This document shows positions 6,621-12,239 of a DNA stretch of 64,000 bases, one piece after another. This DNA is from Terriglobia bacterium (lineage in GTDB: Bacteria; Acidobacteriota; Terriglobia; Terriglobales; Acidobacteriaceae): NCBI GenBank assembly GCA_020073185.1, contig JAIQFT010000008.1:1-64000 (forward strand), in the 5' to 3' direction. Position numbers and translations under genes: made by a program. The notes beneath the pieces were generated by a model that saw only the letters and a program-made list of their open reading frames with translations, did not search any database and was not told the DNA's origin. Each line of letters starts with the position of its first letter. The stretch's first letter is position 1.

Positions 6621-7442
6621 ATGAAGAGCGAACGCCAAAACCGCGAAGACATTGTGCGCTTGGGCCGCATGCTCCACCAGCGCGGCTACGTCGCCGCCAC
6701 CGACGGCAATCTCTCCGTCCGCCTCGACCACGAAACTATCCTCTCCACTCCCACGGGCATGAGCAAGGGCATGTTGGAGCCCGAGGACCTGGTCGTCGTG
6801 GACATGCAAGGGAAGCGCGTCACCGGCCACCGCCAGGTATCCAGTGAGATCGGCATGCACCTGCTGATCTACTCTCACCGTCCGGACGCGCACGGGATCG
6901 TGCACGCGCATCCGCCCACGGCCACCGGATACGCCGCCGCCGGACTGCCGCTGAACCAGGCGCTGGTCTCGGAAATCGTGCTCTCGCTCGGCTGCATTCC
7001 GCTGGCGCGCTACGCCACGCCGGGCACCCCCGAACTGGTACAGGCCCTGGAGCCGCTGGTCCCGCAGTATGACGCCATCCTCATGGCCAACCACGGCGTA
7101 GTCACCTACGGCGACGACCTCACGCGCGCCTACATGAAAATGGAAACCGTCGAGCACTTCGCGCAAATCGCACTGGTCACGCACCTGCTTGGCCGCCAGC
7201 AACTCTTGACCCAGGACGAAGTCGGCAAGCTCATTGATGCCCGCGAGCGCTACGGCCTCACCGGGCCGCCGAAGGCGCCTTCGTGCCCGGTTACGGCATC
7301 ATCGCCGGGAGCGCCTACGCCCGCCAGGGGAACTGAAACGTCCAAGCCGCAGGAGGGAGGCGGCAAGATCACGGTCACGCGCGAAGAACTCGCCGCCATC
7401 GTGGAAGACGCGCTGCGCCAGACCGGCAAGCGCCGGTGGTAG
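6621..7442 (+). CDS. Class II aldolase/adducin-family protein with probable encapsulation peptide
   Basis: 273 residues. Core about 1-214 is a class II aldolase of the fuculose-1-phosphate aldolase type: ATDGNLSVRLD (substrate loop), the zinc pair HAHPPTATGYA, and the downstream metal His in MANHGVVTYGDDL. It is followed by a Pro/Ser/Gly-rich linker (about 215-248) and a predicted amphipathic helix at the C-terminus (TREELAAIVEDALRQ). That linker-helix layout is how many cargo enzymes are recruited into microcompartments, and the BMC shell genes follow directly. Likely reaction: retro-aldol cleavage of a deoxysugar phosphate giving lactaldehyde and DHAP. The substrate is inferred. Confidence 0.9.
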   Translation: MKSERQNREDIVRLGRMLHQRGYVAATDGNLSVRLDHETILSTPTGMSKGMLEPEDLVVVDMQGKRVTGHRQVSSEIGMHLLIYSHRPDAHGIVHAHPPTATGYAAAGLPLNQALVSEIVLSLGCIPLARYATPGTPELVQALEPLVPQYDAILMANHGVVTYGDDLTRAYMKMETVEHFAQIALVTHLLGRQQLLTQDEVGKLIDARERYGLTGPPKAPSCPVTASSPGAPTPARGTETSKPQEGGGKITVTREELAAIVEDALRQTGKRRW

Positions 7443-7586
7443 GAAACCCGCCATTGACTTCAGGCGGCTGACTTTTGGGGTTGGAATTTGGCGCTCAGAC
7501 GCATAACATTCCGCTTTCTTTGCCGGCCCTTGGCTAACCGCCAATGGCCACGGCACTAACTAACGATTCATACCTGGAGACCGACA

Positions 7587-7886
7587 ATGGGTGAAGCATT
7601 AGGAATGATTGAAACGCGCGGCCTGGTGGCGATGATCGAAGCCTCTGACGCCATGGTAAAGGCTGCCAAGGTCACGCTGGTGGGCTGGGAGAAGATCGGC
7701 TCCGGCTACGTCACCGCCATCGTGCGCGGCGACGTCGCTGCCGTCAAGGCCGCCACCGACGCCGGCGCCGCCGCCGCCCGCCGGGTCGGCGAACTGATTG
7801 CCGTGCACGTGATCCCGCGTCCGCATGCCAGCCTGGAAGACGTGCTACCCATCGGTCGCGTCATCACCGCCAAGGCCGGAGCATAG
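7587..7886 (+). CDS. BMC-H hexameric microcompartment shell protein
   Basis: 99 residues, a single BMC domain of the PduA/EutM/CcmK type. It begins [23 protein letters not shown], then has [23 protein letters not shown] and the C-terminal [19 protein letters not shown] occupies the position of the pore loop. A CTGGAG ribosome site precedes the ATG. It forms the hexagonal facet tile of a protein organelle. It is the only hexamer gene in the window and no tandem-domain BMC-T gene is visible. Confidence 0.95.
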
Positions 7887-7888
7887 AG

Positions 7889-7985
7889 GATTTGGCGATT
7901 AGGTGATTTAGTGATGGAGTGATTGCCGGGATCCGAAAGCCCACGCACAATCCCTCAATCACAAATCACTAAATTACCAAATTGC
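7889..7985. repeat. Inverted pair of 8-nt-period arrays after BMC-H
   Basis: Left arm 7889-7928 has units GATTTGGC, GATTAGGT, GATTTAGT. Right arm 7948-7985 has AATCCCTC, AATCACAA, ATCACTAA, ATTACCAA. The arms are inverted complements, so the 3' region of the BMC-H message can fold into a long A+T-rich hairpin. This may set relative expression of the hexamer and the pentamers downstream. Confidence 0.65.
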
Positions 7986-8019
7986 TGCGGCGCGGTTGGC
8001 CGCACCAAGGATGTCGATC

Positions 8020-8346
8020 ATGCTTCTCGCACGCGTAGTAGGCACCGTAGTCGCCACGCGCAAGGACGACCGCCTGCAGGGACGCAAGCTGCTAGTCTGC
8101 CGGCCGGTCGCGCCCGATGGCACCGTTGACGGCGGCTACGTGGTCGCCGTAGACACCGTCGGCGCCGGGGTTCAGGAAACGGTGCTGCTGGTCAGCGGCT
8201 CTTCGGCGCGGATGGCCGGCGGCAAGGATTCGCCGGTGGACAGCGCCGTGGTCGGCATCGTGGACGAGGTTCGCCTGGAAAGCGAATCGGACTCCTCGTC
8301 CAACAGCAAGCGCACCGCCGCCATGGCTGCCAAGTCGAGACACTAG
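8020..8346 (+). CDS. BMC-P vertex protein (EutN/CcmL family), first of three
   Basis: 108 residues from the ATG at 8020, preceded by AAGGA at eight-base spacing; ATG at 8011 and TTG at 7996 are upstream alternatives. EutN/CcmL core: MLLARVVGTVVATRKDDRLQ, GRKLLVCRPV, YVVAVDTVGAGVQETVLLV, the small-residue loop GSSARMA and VVGIVDEV. Pentamers of this family cap shell vertices. A Ser/Lys-rich tail of about 25 residues follows the domain. Confidence 0.93.
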   Translation: MLLARVVGTVVATRKDDRLQGRKLLVCRPVAPDGTVDGGYVVAVDTVGAGVQETVLLVSGSSARMAGGKDSPVDSAVVGIVDEVRLESESDSSSNSKRTAAMAAKSRH

Positions 8347-8431
8347 TTGAACGATGCAACGCATCCGCCAATTCGTCATGGCAGCAGCACTAACTCAGCG
8401 TTGGAGCGCGCTCGCGAGCGCGTCTCCACCA

Positions 8432-8459
8432 GAAACTGGAAACCAGAAACTGGAAACTC
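8432..8459. repeat. 7-nt-period array between BMC-P genes
   Basis: Heptamers GAAACTG, GAAACCA, GAAACTG, GAAACTC end 12 bases before the second BMC-P gene. They are preceded by a GC palindrome, GCGCTCGCGAGCGC (about 8407-8420). No inverted partner array is present here. Confidence 0.6.
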
Positions 8460-8471
8460 GCGACCACTCTC

Positions 8472-8882
8472 ATGATGTTAGCTAGAGTTATCGGCACCGT
8501 CGTTTGCACCGTCAAGTACCCAACGCTTGAGGGCCGTAAGCTCCTGCTGCTGCAACCGGTGAACAAGGACGGCGTGCCGCGCGGCAGAACCCTGGTCGGC
8601 ATTGACGCCGTCGGCGCCGGCGAGGGGGAAACCGTGTACTGGTGCCGCGGCCGCGAAGCCGCCCTCGCCTTCGATCACGAGGTGGTCAGCGACGCCAGCA
8701 TCGTTGGTATCGTGGATGAAATCACGGGCCGCTCCGATACTCCGCCGGCGTCTGCGGCCTCCGCGGCGGGTCCGGCCTGCACCGCCGTCGGTCCGGCTTC
8801 GAGCGCATCGCCTTCGACCGCAGCGCCGGCGCCCAATCGGCGCGAGCATCCTGCCCCCGCGCACAAGCGAGGCCGCCGATGA
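8472..8882 (+). CDS. BMC-P vertex protein (EutN/CcmL family), second of three
   Basis: 136 residues. The domain spans about 1-92 (MLARVIGTVVCTVKYPTLEG, GRKLLLLQPVN, VGIDAVGAGEGETVYWC, ASIVGIVDEI), followed by an Ala/Pro/Ser-rich basic tail of about 44 residues that is unusual for the family. The tail could be a tether or interaction segment, or drift. Its stop overlaps the next gene by ATGA (8879-8882). ATG at 8472 and 8475 are both possible starts. Confidence 0.93.
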   Translation: MMLARVIGTVVCTVKYPTLEGRKLLLLQPVNKDGVPRGRTLVGIDAVGAGEGETVYWCRGREAALAFDHEVVSDASIVGIVDEITGRSDTPPASAASAAGPACTAVGPASSASPSTAAPAPNRREHPAPAHKRGRR

Positions 8883-9154
8883 TCATCGGACGCGTGCTGG
8901 GCGAAGTTGTTGCCACCCGCAAGCATCGCTCTCACGAAGGCCGCAAGATCCTGCTGGTGCAACCGCTGGCGCTCGACGACTCCGCCCGTGGAGAGCCCAT
9001 CCTCGCGCTTGACACAGTCGACGCCGGCGTCGGCGACCGCGTCCTGGTGGTGCTGGAGGGCTACAGTGCCATGACCGCCGCCGGCCGTCCCAACTCGCCC
9101 ATTGACATGAGCGTCATCGGCGTCGTGGACGAGGTGGAACTACAGGAAAGTTAA
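8879..9154 (+). CDS. BMC-P vertex protein (EutN/CcmL family), third of three
   Basis: 91 residues, close to the minimal EutN/CcmL fold: MIIGRVLGEVVATRKHRSHEG, GRKILLVQPL, ILALDTVDAGVGDRVLVVLEG, VIGVVDEVEL. It is translationally coupled to the preceding gene. Three different BMC-P proteins in one locus recall the planctomycete-verrucomicrobial type of microcompartment, where a class II aldolase is also the signature enzyme. The usual aldehyde dehydrogenase and phosphotransacylase are not in this window. Confidence 0.94.
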   Translation: MIIGRVLGEVVATRKHRSHEGRKILLVQPLALDDSARGEPILALDTVDAGVGDRVLVVLEGYSAMTAAGRPNSPIDMSVIGVVDEVELQES

Positions 9155-9223: not shown

Positions 9224-11422
9224 TCACTCCCCACCGACGCGAAACCTCATTCCCGCACGAAAGTTCATGCGCAACGCCGGAAATCCCGCCGCTTCCTCGT
9301 AGTGCCGGTTGAGCGCGTTCTCGACATTCACATACGCGGTCACGCGGCTGCTGATCGCGTGCCACACACCGAAGTCTGCGCGCGCGTATCCCGCCGAGTG
9401 CGTCACCGGGGGCAGCAGCCCGAGGAAATCAGAATCGGCGCGACGTCCAAGCGCCGTCACGCCCAGGTCGCCACCCCAGCGGAGCGACGTGTACGCCGCC
9501 AGCAGCGATCCCGCGTGCTTGGGACGGCGCAGCAGTGGAGCGCCTGCGCTCAACAGCCGATCGAACGCCAGCGGCGCGCTCAGAATCTGGGTGGATGTGT
9601 AAGTGTAGGAAGCATCGATGGTGACCCGCGACCATGGCCGCGCCCGAAACTCCACCTCCGACCCGTGCGCCAGCGCGCGGTTGATGTTCTGATACTGGCT
9701 GACGAAGGTCGCCGGATCGAAGTTGAATTCGATCTGGTTGGTGAAGCGGTTGTTGAAGTAGGTCGCGCCCAGCCAGTACTTGCCGCCGACAAAGCTCTGC
9801 TGCACGCCTGCCTCCAGCGAGCGGTTCTCCTCGGCCGTGAGCTTGGGATTGGGAATGATCCCAAATCCGCCGACGCCGAACGATTCCTCCAGCCGCGGCT
9901 CCTTGATTCCCGTGCCGTAGGCGAAGCGCAGCCGCGTGCCGGAGAAAATCTCTCCGCCTTTCAGCGCCAGCACGCTCACCGCAATTCGCGGCAGGCCGCG
10001 ATTGCCGAAGCTTTCGTTGTGCTCGAAGCGCGCGCCCGCAATCACCGATACGCGATTCCAGCGGAAGACCTCCTGCCCGAAGACCGCGTGGTTGCGCCGC
10101 AGGCCGTGGCCGAGCGGCGGCAAGGTCAGATCGCCGACCCAGCCGTTCTCGTCCTCGAAGTGATAGCCGACCGTGGTCCGAGCCCAGCTTCGCGCCTCGT
10201 AATCGCCCTGGTAGTCGAAGCCAGCGCGGTTGAGATTGGCGAAATCGGAGAACGGGAAATCGAAGTTGCCGAACGCCGGCGAAACGCGTCCCGGGTCGAT
10301 GAAGGTGTCCACCACCGAGCGCCGGTGATGGTACTCGAAGCCGCTGAAGCGGTGCTGCCAGCGCGATGGGCCGGCGAGCGTCAACTGCGCGCTTGCCAGG
10401 AAGTTGTTCTGCCGCGCGCGCGCGTCAGTGTCGGGCGGCACCAGCGGCTGGCCGTTGAAGTTCCAGAAACCCTGCACGCCACTGCGGTCGGTGAAATGCC
10501 GCGTGCGCATCCGCAACGCCGCGCGCGGCGCGATCTGCACGCCGACATTCGCGCCTTGCAGCGAACTCGAATACTGGTCGTTGATTCCCTGTCCCTGCGT
10601 GTTGAACTGCTCGCCGAACAGGTTGTAGTCGAAGCGTCCGCGCGCGCCTGCCAACGACGCGTATCCGCGTGCCGTCTGAAACGTTCCGCCTTCGGCTCCG
10701 AAGCGCAACTCCGGCACGCGCGTAGTTCCCGTCGCAGTCCAGGTCTGGATCACGCTGGTCATGGCGTCGGAACCGTACAGCGTGCTTTCCGCGCCGCGCA
10801 CGAATTCCAGCCTGTCCACCTGATACATGGGAACGACGCCGAAGTCGAACGTTCCTCCGGGATCGTTCACCGCGACGCCATCAACAATCACCTTGTTGTA
10901 GCGCGAGTCGCCGCCGCGCACGAACAGCGATGACAATCCTCCTCGGCGACCGTTGGCGGAGATGATCGCTCCGGGCAGAAAGCGCAGCGTGTCAATCGCG
11001 CTCACCGGCTGCATGGACTTCAGCGCGTCGGGACCGAGTAACGATGTGTCGGAACCTATGTCCGCACTGGGCAGCGGCGTCCGTTCGGCGCTGACCACCA
11101 CGGTTTCCGCCGCTTTCGGCAGCGACAGCTTCACCGTCATTTCCACTTCCTGCATGACCGAAGCAGTTGCCGTGGCAGGCGCAAATCCGGGCGCGAGCAC
11201 CTCCACGCGATACGCGCTCGCGCTCAGACCGCTGAATGCGCACGTTCCTTCGGCGTTCGTGGTGCGCACCGCGACCGCAGTCGAACTGTTTGGGGAGTAG
11301 AGCGTGACCCGCGCACCCGCGACCACCGCGGATTGCGGATCAGTGACCCTGATTTTCAGCTCGGAGGCAGAGCCGCTGGCGACCAGCAGCAACAGGGGAA
11401 GTACAAAACGGAGACAGCGCAT
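9224..11422 (-). CDS. TonB-dependent outer-membrane receptor (probable cobalamin uptake)
   Basis: 732 residues. A signal peptide (about 1-19) is followed by a carboxypeptidase-regulatory-like beta domain (about 20-105), a TonB-box-like ETVVVSAER, the plug (DTLRFLPGAIISANGRRGG, SLFVRGGDSRYNKVIVDGV, VEFVRGAEST-like RLEFVRGAESTLYGS) and a 22-strand-type barrel ending in an aromatic-rich FRAGMRFRVGG. AAAGGAG precedes the start. A cobalamin riboswitch lies immediately upstream, so the transported ligand is most likely vitamin B12 or a corrinoid (BtuB role). The extra N-terminal domain is common in Acidobacteria and Bacteroidetes receptors. Confidence 0.9.
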   Translation of the reverse strand: MRCLRFVLPLLLLVASGSASELKIRVTDPQSAVVAGARVTLYSPNSSTAVAVRTTNAEGTCAFSGLSASAYRVEVLAPGFAPATATASVMQEVEMTVKLSLPKAAETVVVSAERTPLPSADIGSDTSLLGPDALKSMQPVSAIDTLRFLPGAIISANGRRGGLSSLFVRGGDSRYNKVIVDGVAVNDPGGTFDFGVVPMYQVDRLEFVRGAESTLYGSDAMTSVIQTWTATGTTRVPELRFGAEGGTFQTARGYASLAGARGRFDYNLFGEQFNTQGQGINDQYSSSLQGANVGVQIAPRAALRMRTRHFTDRSGVQGFWNFNGQPLVPPDTDARARQNNFLASAQLTLAGPSRWQHRFSGFEYHHRRSVVDTFIDPGRVSPAFGNFDFPFSDFANLNRAGFDYQGDYEARSWARTTVGYHFEDENGWVGDLTLPPLGHGLRRNHAVFGQEVFRWNRVSVIAGARFEHNESFGNRGLPRIAVSVLALKGGEIFSGTRLRFAYGTGIKEPRLEESFGVGGFGIIPNPKLTAEENRSLEAGVQQSFVGGKYWLGATYFNNRFTNQIEFNFDPATFVSQYQNINRALAHGSEVEFRARPWSRVTIDASYTYTSTQILSAPLAFDRLLSAGAPLLRRPKHAGSLLAAYTSLRWGGDLGVTALGRRADSDFLGLLPPVTHSAGYARADFGVWHAISSRVTAYVNVENALNRHYEEAAGFPALRMNFRAGMRFRVGGE

Positions 11423-11454
11423 AGACCATGCTCCTTTTCACGCGAAAGGGGTCA

Positions 11455-11680
11455 GTGGTTGCAGTTCGCGCCGGTCTCCTGGCTTGCGACAAAACAGTTT
11501 CAGTTTCAGTTTCTGTTTCAGTTGTCTCGGCTGAAACTGAAACGGAAACTTGAAACTCCGGGCCGCCTTCCCATCGCTGGTGCGACAGTGGCAGCGCCGA
11601 CCAACAGCGTCGCTTACAGTTGCGCGGCAGCGCGGGTTTTTCACCCGCTTCCCGTGCACGCGAACCAAGGTTGTCAAAGA
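11455..11680 (-). promoter_or_regulatory. Cobalamin riboswitch
   Basis: On the minus strand, in order: a GGGAAGCGGGTGAAAAACCCGC core stretch, GCGCAACTGTAAGCGACG, GCCACTGTC, GATGGGAAGGC, and the B12 box AGCCAGGAGACCGGCGC at 11468-11484. TTCGCG near 11665 pairs with CGCGAA near 11468 as a closing stem. It lies about 40 bases before the TonB-receptor ATG, so corrinoid binding should shut the receptor off. The variable arm before the B12 box (11495-11557) is a hairpin built of 6-nt repeats. Confidence 0.93.
11495..11557. repeat. 6-nt-period inverted arrays forming a riboswitch arm
   Basis: Left array 11495-11523 repeats CAGTTT (with one CTGTTT). Right array 11531-11557 repeats CTGAAA/CGGAAA. Together they form a long hairpin inside the cobalamin riboswitch between the GGGAAGGC element and the B12 box. 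Confidence 0.7.
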
Positions 11681-11746: not shown

Positions 11747-12013
11747 TTATCGAGCTGCGTCATTCGCGCGGTGCTTCTCGATCTGCTGGACTACTCTATC
11801 GAGATCGGGATAGCCGGCGCCAAAGCGCCGTGTGAACCAATTCCCACCGCGCTCGGCAATCCTCTCGCCGTCAGCGATCACCTCGAACTGACCGGTCTTG
11901 CCAGGCGTAGTCACGGCTTCAATGTTGAAGCGCTGCTTGATGAGGGACACGAGCCTCGCGACCATGACATTGTTGTTCTGTCACGTCGGGCAGTGAACGA
12001 TCTCGATCTTCAT
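11747..12013 (-). CDS. SelW/Rdx-family selenoprotein with in-frame TGA (Sec11)
   Basis: Read from ATG at 12013, the frame runs 88 residues to the stop at 11747 if the TGA at 11981-11983 is selenocysteine. The start reads MKIEIVHCPTU, so the TGA is the second position of the CxxC/CxxU redox motif of the Rdx (SelW/SelT/SelH) family; the rest fits that fold (GQFEVIADGERIAERGG, then GYPDLDRVVQQIE). A GGAAAG ribosome site precedes the ATG, while the next ATG (11965) lies after the motif and would destroy the protein. A SECIS-like hairpin follows at 11945-11963. Likely role: thioredoxin-like thiol/selenol redox reactions. It needs selenocysteine machinery elsewhere in the genome. Confidence 0.85.
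11945..11963 (-). promoter_or_regulatory. Candidate bacterial SECIS hairpin
   Basis: Minus-strand RNA GGUCGCGA-GGC-UCGUGUCC forms a stem with one U-U mismatch and one G-U pair and a three-base loop starting with G. The loop lies about 25 bases after the UGA. Bacterial SECIS elements place a G-led apical loop roughly 16-37 bases downstream of the Sec codon, so position and loop both fit. Confidence 0.65.
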
Positions 12014-12239
12014 TTCTTTCCGATCGCTGGTGGTTAGACGAAGCCGCGTGGCTCAGTCGAGCTTGGGGAATTGTAAACCAGAATCCCCCTGCGGATTGAA
12101 CAGCGCTTAGGAAGCTCCGATCAAGCCCGTTGGCAGTCTCGCAGCGACTAAAGCCGTACACATTCTGCGGCATTTACGGACGGCCGGAAGACCGTCCCCT
12201 TCAAGGAATCGGAGTTGATAAGACCCTCCTTAGCACGCG

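Follow-up and report, generated by a model that had tools for sequence, protein, structure and literature searches.

The minus strand of the window, by which we mean the whole 64,000-nucleotide stretch of DNA analysed here, carries a short reading frame that passes through a single in-frame UGA and holds, shortly after that codon, a stem-loop of the bacterial SECIS type (Table 1). Translation of the frame gives MKIEIVHCPTUQNNNVMVARLVSLIKQRFNIEAVTTPGKTGQFEVIADGERIAERGGNWFTRRFGAGYPDLDRVVQQIEKHRANDAAR before the stop codon, in agreement with a preliminary description that had proposed one frame of 88 codons interrupted by TGA alone and had left the strand unstated. The same description placed the TGA at the second Cys of the CxxC motif of the family, where it indeed falls, and cited two downstream motifs, GQFEVIADGERIAERGG and GYPDLDRVVQQI, in favour of an Rdx fold, both of which occur in frame. 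Its forecast that an automatic caller would start the gene beyond the redox centre is borne out by the mechanical ORF list. A purine-rich stretch upstream of the ATG may serve as a weak ribosome-binding site. The rows of alignment A1, from which the family profile used below was built, were trimmed to begin at the ATG column of the window, and the start that they share is therefore no independent proof of the start codon; in one member (L027) this column holds a TTG directly after a stop codon.

Table 1. Positions in the window of the selW gene, its elements and the neighbouring features discussed in the text.
Feature	Position	Strand	Remarks
SelW-like (Rdx family) gene, very probably encoding a selenoprotein	11747..12013	minus	88 codons, then TAA; motif CPTU with residue 11 as probable Sec
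In-frame UGA, probable selenocysteine codon	11981..11983	minus	codon 11, at the U of the CxxU motif
Start codon ATG	12011..12013	minus	from sequence
ORF of 72 aa, product of callers that stop at the TGA	11747..11965	minus	redox centre missing
Bacterial SECIS stem-loop	11945..11963	minus	17 nt past the UGA; 7/8 pairs, one U-U mismatch, loop GGC
Candidate weak ribosome-binding site	12021..12016		GGAAAG
Cobalamin riboswitch	11452..11678	minus	82.8 bits
TonB-dependent receptor gene	9224..11422
BMC shell protein gene and three EutN/CcmL-like genes	6621..9154	plus	adjoining a class II aldolase gene

With the TGA read as Cys, the protein scores 28.6 bits against the Pfam Rdx model (PF10262), above its cut-off of 22.6 bits, which supports the SelW/Rdx identity proposed at the outset. 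Its score against the NCBIfam model TIGR02174 (SelT/SelW/SelH) is 21.5 bits, below the cut-off of 34.2 bits, and a raw six-frame search of the genome with Pfam Rdx did not report the gene. An AlphaFold2 model based on a 24-row alignment (pLDDT 82.6, pTM 0.69) consists of a strand, a helix, three strands and two helices, in this sequence along the chain, with the first strand at residues 3-7, the first helix at residues 12-29 and the C8-P-T-U11 motif between them. Foldseek returned 21 matches at E <= 1e-3, all of them chains of six entries (2p0g, 2fa8, 2obk, 2ojl, 2oka and 3dex) with TM scores (query) of 0.66-0.72, followed by thioredoxins and MIEN1. The titles of 2p0g and 2fa8 describe them as selenoprotein W-related; in all, three of the six bear SelW- or selenoprotein-related names, and the other three are Rdx proteins. 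A profile search of solved sequences included the same six entries among the 17 matches listed (E 1.5e-4 to 0.028), its top being taken by MIEN1 (2ljk, E 4.9e-5) and five of the six, with 2ojl lower (E 0.028) after unrelated chains; selenoprotein W 2npb, of the mouse type, appeared at E 0.88 only. The SelW-related structures 2p0g, 2fa8 and 2obk thus share the predicted fold (TM 0.66-0.71; profile E 8e-4 to 5e-3) at 22-27% identity to the window protein, whose modelled structure is a thioredoxin-like Rdx fold.

Conservation of the UGA and coding constraint around it

Reading the available copies of the subfamily to which the gene belongs, we found that all 26 (25 of them distinct sequences) encode Cys at codon 8 and have TGA as codon 11, and the searches made gave no Cys form of this subfamily. 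The position is conserved in the homologue alignment that the preliminary description had recommended. A scan of genome contigs with short patterns of the window's protein located 11 loci, ten of them orthologues with 56-85% identity and TGA at codon 11 in every case; these ten come from records titled Acidobacteria, Acidobacteriaceae, Terriglobia, Bryobacteraceae, Acidobacteriota or Thermoanaerobaculia. The eleventh, from Verrucomicrobia (L030), was excluded as a weak match (41% over residues 19-55). A protein search of 396 genomes of the phylum produced 24 places in 22 genomes, the window's own included, with TGA in 23; the place without it (L049) is a partial match to residues 26-72 that we judged to be due to chance. 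No copies of the gene were found on plasmids.

Some loci need comment as to how they were counted. L031 denotes the window's own locus, and over the gene the sequences of L119 and L020 do not differ. Six loci (L043, L045, L047, L050, L052 and L054) were handled as classical SelW, with L045 and L052 absent from the tree described below, and two weak matches (L046 and L048) were kept out of either class. In one subfamily member, L039, codon 33 of the selW frame is a further stop, TAG, which means that the copy is broken or its assembly faulty; this member was excluded from alignments A1 and A2 and is included among the 26 copies.

Comparison of 14 sequences gave dN/dS values of 0.14 upstream of the UGA (codons 2-10) and 0.175 downstream of it (codons 25-79), low values on either side which argue that both parts of the frame are read as protein. 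In the hairpin codons 18-24 of the same sequences synonymous change is suppressed (pS 0.18, versus 0.53 in codons 25-79), and the stem region is thus constrained beyond the protein that it encodes. The branch leading to the window's copy is comparatively long (0.10, versus 0.022 for the nearest relative), and given that the gene is missing from a congener, the copy could be under relaxed constraint. These last two observations would also suit a true stop at the UGA, the upstream part belonging to a pseudogene or reflecting a sequencing or assembly error and the 72-aa ORF, which does exist, being the one product translated, if anything is. However, the identical UGA codon occurs in 25 distinct sequences, purifying selection acts upstream of it, a covarying hairpin follows it and the genome holds complete Sec machinery, and a 72-aa product would be devoid of both the redox motif and the first strand. 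We therefore consider termination at this codon very improbable and retain the reading of the UGA as selenocysteine.

A covarying hairpin downstream of the UGA

The G-led loop announced about 25 bases past the UGA is present, the GGC starting at 25 nt. The evidence for the hairpin comes from its conservation across the subfamily. In 22 aligned sequences an eight-pair stem that begins 17 nt past the UGA has standard pairs in 172 of 176 cells, 22 of which are changed on both sides; none of 500 shuffles reached the number of paired cells, the number of double-changed cells or the covariation score, and versions of the stem slid along the alignment were 31-55% paired. Two further measures were less striking, namely the number of pairs with change on both sides (three, matched by 163/500 shuffles) and the number of further pair types (ten, matched by 16/500). 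We also compared the stem with synonymous recodings under two null models, for each of which 0/2000 recodings reached 172 paired cells (means 131.8 and 119.1). Covariation and the synonymous-codon null together rule out a chance hairpin. The spacer of L041 and L042 is shorter by one codon, for which reason alignment A2 leaves them out.

Taken singly, the hairpin of the window is unremarkable, and comparison across sequences is the convincing part. With a U-U mismatch at pair 3 and an energy of -7.5 kcal/mol it is the weakest of the 24 that were folded, and 411 of 1000 synonymous versions are equally stable (z -0.22). Over the 24 genes the mean folding z is -1.02, versus -0.04 for a control stretch. 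When the UGA is included in a 48-nt stretch, 27/200 dinucleotide shuffles fold as well as the native sequence (z -0.93), and in the best fold the UGA itself is paired within a small second hairpin. Published criteria for bacterial SECIS elements are an apical loop of 3-9 nt, a stem of 4-16 bp, a G in the first two loop positions, 16-37 nt between UGA and loop, and a minimum free energy of <= -7.5 kcal/mol (PMC13188914). The window's element, with its GGC loop at 25 nt, 7 bp and -7.5 kcal/mol, lies exactly at the energy limit. All 26 copies pass the criteria as coded, with a G-led loop 22-25 nt past the UGA, but so do 506/1000 synonymous versions and 20 of 25 control stretches, a poor specificity; neither folding energy nor the generic criteria were used as proof of the hairpin.

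The same features raise the question of whether the SECIS is decaying in the window's lineage, the gene still encoding a selenoprotein with decoding that is weak or being lost. The mismatch and the low stability relative to the rest of the set are in keeping with decay, as are several amino-acid differences from relatives that fall in the spacer and stem and the congener in which nothing recognisable as this gene lies between the flanking ones. Against it, seven of eight pairs, including the five proximal to the loop, and the G-led loop are retained, the remainder of the protein is intact (Cys8, GQF and GAGYP among its features), and bacterial SECIS elements tolerate mismatches and bulges. On balance we think decay unlikely, if a more serious contender than termination at the UGA.

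A covariance model of the hairpin, R1, gives the window 59.5 bits, a score that follows by construction from its being a training row. Elsewhere in the window's genome no SECIS of the same type was seen among the 150 of 3337 candidates scored (best 17.9 bits, E ~1), and over 22 sources R1 found no match up to E 10 in the SelD gene (L018). R1 would thus be specific to the SelW type of the window and no general finder of selenoproteins.

Selenocysteine machinery and probable decoding of the UGA

The source genome (4.66 Mb in 121 contigs, completeness rated 100%) encodes the apparatus that reading UGA as selenocysteine would call for. A search for selA, selB, selC and selD had been advised, with absence of selB or selC named as evidence against a selenoprotein, and all four genes are present: tRNA-Sec scores 66.8 bits and is identified by ARAGORN as tRNA-SeC with anticodon TCA, SelA scores 555 bits, SelD 365 bits and SelB 366 bits, the last with GTPase, beta-barrel, SelB-wing_2 and SelB-wing_3 domains. 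The SelD gene (L018; G000:C65, minus strand, from 2466) has an in-frame TGA of its own at codon 18 (KAAGUASKLS), by which SelD would probably be a second selenoprotein of this genome.

Across the phylum, strong SelA matches accompany UGA-containing Rdx genes in 101 of 108 genomes, versus 150 of the 288 others (Fisher p 1.7e-16, kinship ignored). This tally counts 251 genomes as having strong SelA, 249 by the cut-off of the tool, and places among the others four genomes (G092, G137, G257 and G359) with a TGA-containing match to profile A1 alone, all four of which have SelA. The seven UGA-Rdx genomes without strong SelA (G046, G057, G080, G127, G136, G140 and G193) have completeness values of 64-75% in four cases and 91-100% in three.

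Decoding of the UGA as some other residue, by general readthrough or in a code with UGA reassigned, would fit the sequence to the extent that readthrough by a near-cognate tRNA is compatible with it. Against this stand the tRNA-Sec with its TCA anticodon and SelA, SelB and SelD in the same genome, the covariation of the hairpin, and the location of the UGA at the known Sec position of a family whose SelW-like members are of the CxxU type, as described in PMC2398784. We regard such decoding as the least probable of all the explanations considered. The interpretation that we favour, with a probability of roughly 0.96, is that the product of the gene is a small oxidoreductase with a thioredoxin fold, belonging to the SelW-like (Rdx) family and containing Sec at residue 11, decoded by way of SelB and the hairpin; very probably, then, this is a true gene for a SelW-like selenoprotein and a new member of a known family.

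Under this interpretation SelD would supply selenophosphate, with which SelA would make Sec-tRNA(Sec), and SelB carrying Sec-tRNA(Sec) would bind the hairpin downstream of the UGA, with the result that selenocysteine is inserted at residue 11 and termination is avoided. Cys8 and Sec11 would then form a redox pair between the first strand and the first helix, taking the form of a selenenylsulfide when oxidised. We infer Sec incorporation, the redox reaction and the existence of a redox partner from sequence, and the redox chemistry specifically from the motif.

SelW-like CxxU selenoproteins of bacteria (PF10262) have been in print since 2005, as PMC1088965, PMC2398784 and PMC13188914 indicate, and the last, a 2026 review, grades the family as "predicted with high confidence". 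They resemble the window gene in being small, with Cys-x-x-Sec near the N-terminus and a UGA followed by a bacterial SECIS, and PMC1794560 and PMC2398784 attribute few Cys homologues to them, which is also a likeness to the window's subfamily. An experimental parallel is SelW of Campylobacter jejuni, like the present gene a short bacterial gene with UGA as Sec and, according to PMC11955535, previously unannotated. For the C. jejuni gene PMC11955535 reports full-length translation past the UGA on the basis of ribosome profiling and proteomics, whereas the window gene is known from its sequence. The present locus offers a clean example of a probable selenoprotein that routine annotation would miss.

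A divergent subfamily and its genomic setting

The gene belongs to a divergent subfamily, seen solely in Sec form, that is distinct from the classical branch of bacterial SelW-like proteins. Over the 396 genomes, profile A1 (24 members) had matches in at least 107, with up to 13 candidates scored per genome; at least 15 places in at least 14 genomes scored 87 bits or more and the next-best place 55 bits, a gap that arises partly by construction, since 14 of the 24 rows are the window and members of those same genomes. In a maximum-likelihood tree of 58 rows, unrooted and built from a short alignment with some long branches, a branch with support 100/99 separates the 24 divergent rows from the classical Sec-SelW of the phylum (L063-L084). 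Both groups have UGA at the same motif position and differ around it: CP(T/S)U followed by xNN in the window's clade versus mostly CxxUNYxP in the classical rows, with the FSKxxxGRFP region of the latter corresponding to RGGN(W/F)xTRx(F/L)GAGYP in the former. Deeper members of the subfamily have other motifs (CDTUATT, CVSUGYR and CTTUGRS).

Pfam Rdx, run over the same 396 genomes, had matches in 115, the window's genome not among them. One TGA occurs in 114 of its 126 places; the other 12 comprise eight Cys-type copies (L055-L062), three that start past the motif and one short piece (G215). The Cys-type copies, with CTQC, stand beside classical Sec rows in the tree and away from the divergent rows, a placement compatible, in an unrooted tree, with a change from Sec to Cys.

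A classical form occurs as well, at a separate place, in 11 of the 14 genomes that hold the divergent one, each such classical copy having one TGA; five of these partners (L068, L072, L073, L080 and L081) are in the tree and the other six were classed by Pfam score alone. The three genomes without a classical copy are that of the window, its congener G112 and G071. We lean slightly towards the view that the divergent genes constitute a second, paralogous SelW-type subfamily, in Sec form only and so far confined to Acidobacteriota, which accompanies classical Sec-SelW in most of its holders and, as part of the same view, has escaped notice through truncation by gene callers and through being missed or scored too low by family models derived from classical SelW. 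The occurrence of the divergent subfamily in Sec form alone is the single point here that goes beyond routine interest. A Sec-only subfamily beside classical Sec-SelW would be a good place to ask why Cys does not replace Sec, and profile A1 and covariance model R1 could find more members.

Acidobacteriota are common in soil and, to our knowledge, selenium use among them has been little studied. In the deep-Sep report (PMC12013277) three known selenoprotein genes are listed for one acidobacterium, and a term count of the main text of PMC5029168 returned neither Acidobacteria nor SelW. We did not find a divergent acidobacterial SelW subfamily in the open-licence literature, outside which most subscription journals lie, with searches that had no name of the subfamily to aim at, and claim no novelty for it.

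The order DUF374 gene, selW, cobalamin riboswitch and TonB receptor is common to the window and its close relatives L020 and L032. When 14 ORFs of the window, selW included, were compared by tblastn with 17 loci (L020-L029 and L032-L038), the DUF374 and TonB neighbours were found in L020 and L032 only, and the remaining loci gave weak matches (26-29%) to an ABC ATPase or a PilZ protein only. No conserved operon or partner gene was seen within the flanks compared, which are short (<=1.5 kb for L032-L038, some contigs ending nearby). Among four genomes of the genus, SelA is present in all and the gene in three. The genome lacking it is G397 (98% complete), where about 60 bases separate the DUF374 gene from the riboswitch and TonB receptor and where nothing recognisable as selW was found in the interval searched (L123, G397:C91:15500-21500; best tblastn E 2.0), although selA is kept. 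The riboswitch thus stays with the receptor in a genome that lacks selW, and the gene is probably a stand-alone, dispensable unit.

In the window the riboswitch lies between selW and the TonB-dependent receptor gene, and the two together are perhaps a B12 uptake locus. An Acido-Lenti-1 RNA is located between riboswitch and TonB gene in L020 (5951-5996) and L032 (1010-1057), whereas neither the window nor L123 gave a score exceeding the threshold. On the plus strand of the window, a bacterial microcompartment (BMC) shell protein gene is grouped with three EutN/CcmL-like genes, one assigned by a Pfam match and the other two by similarity.
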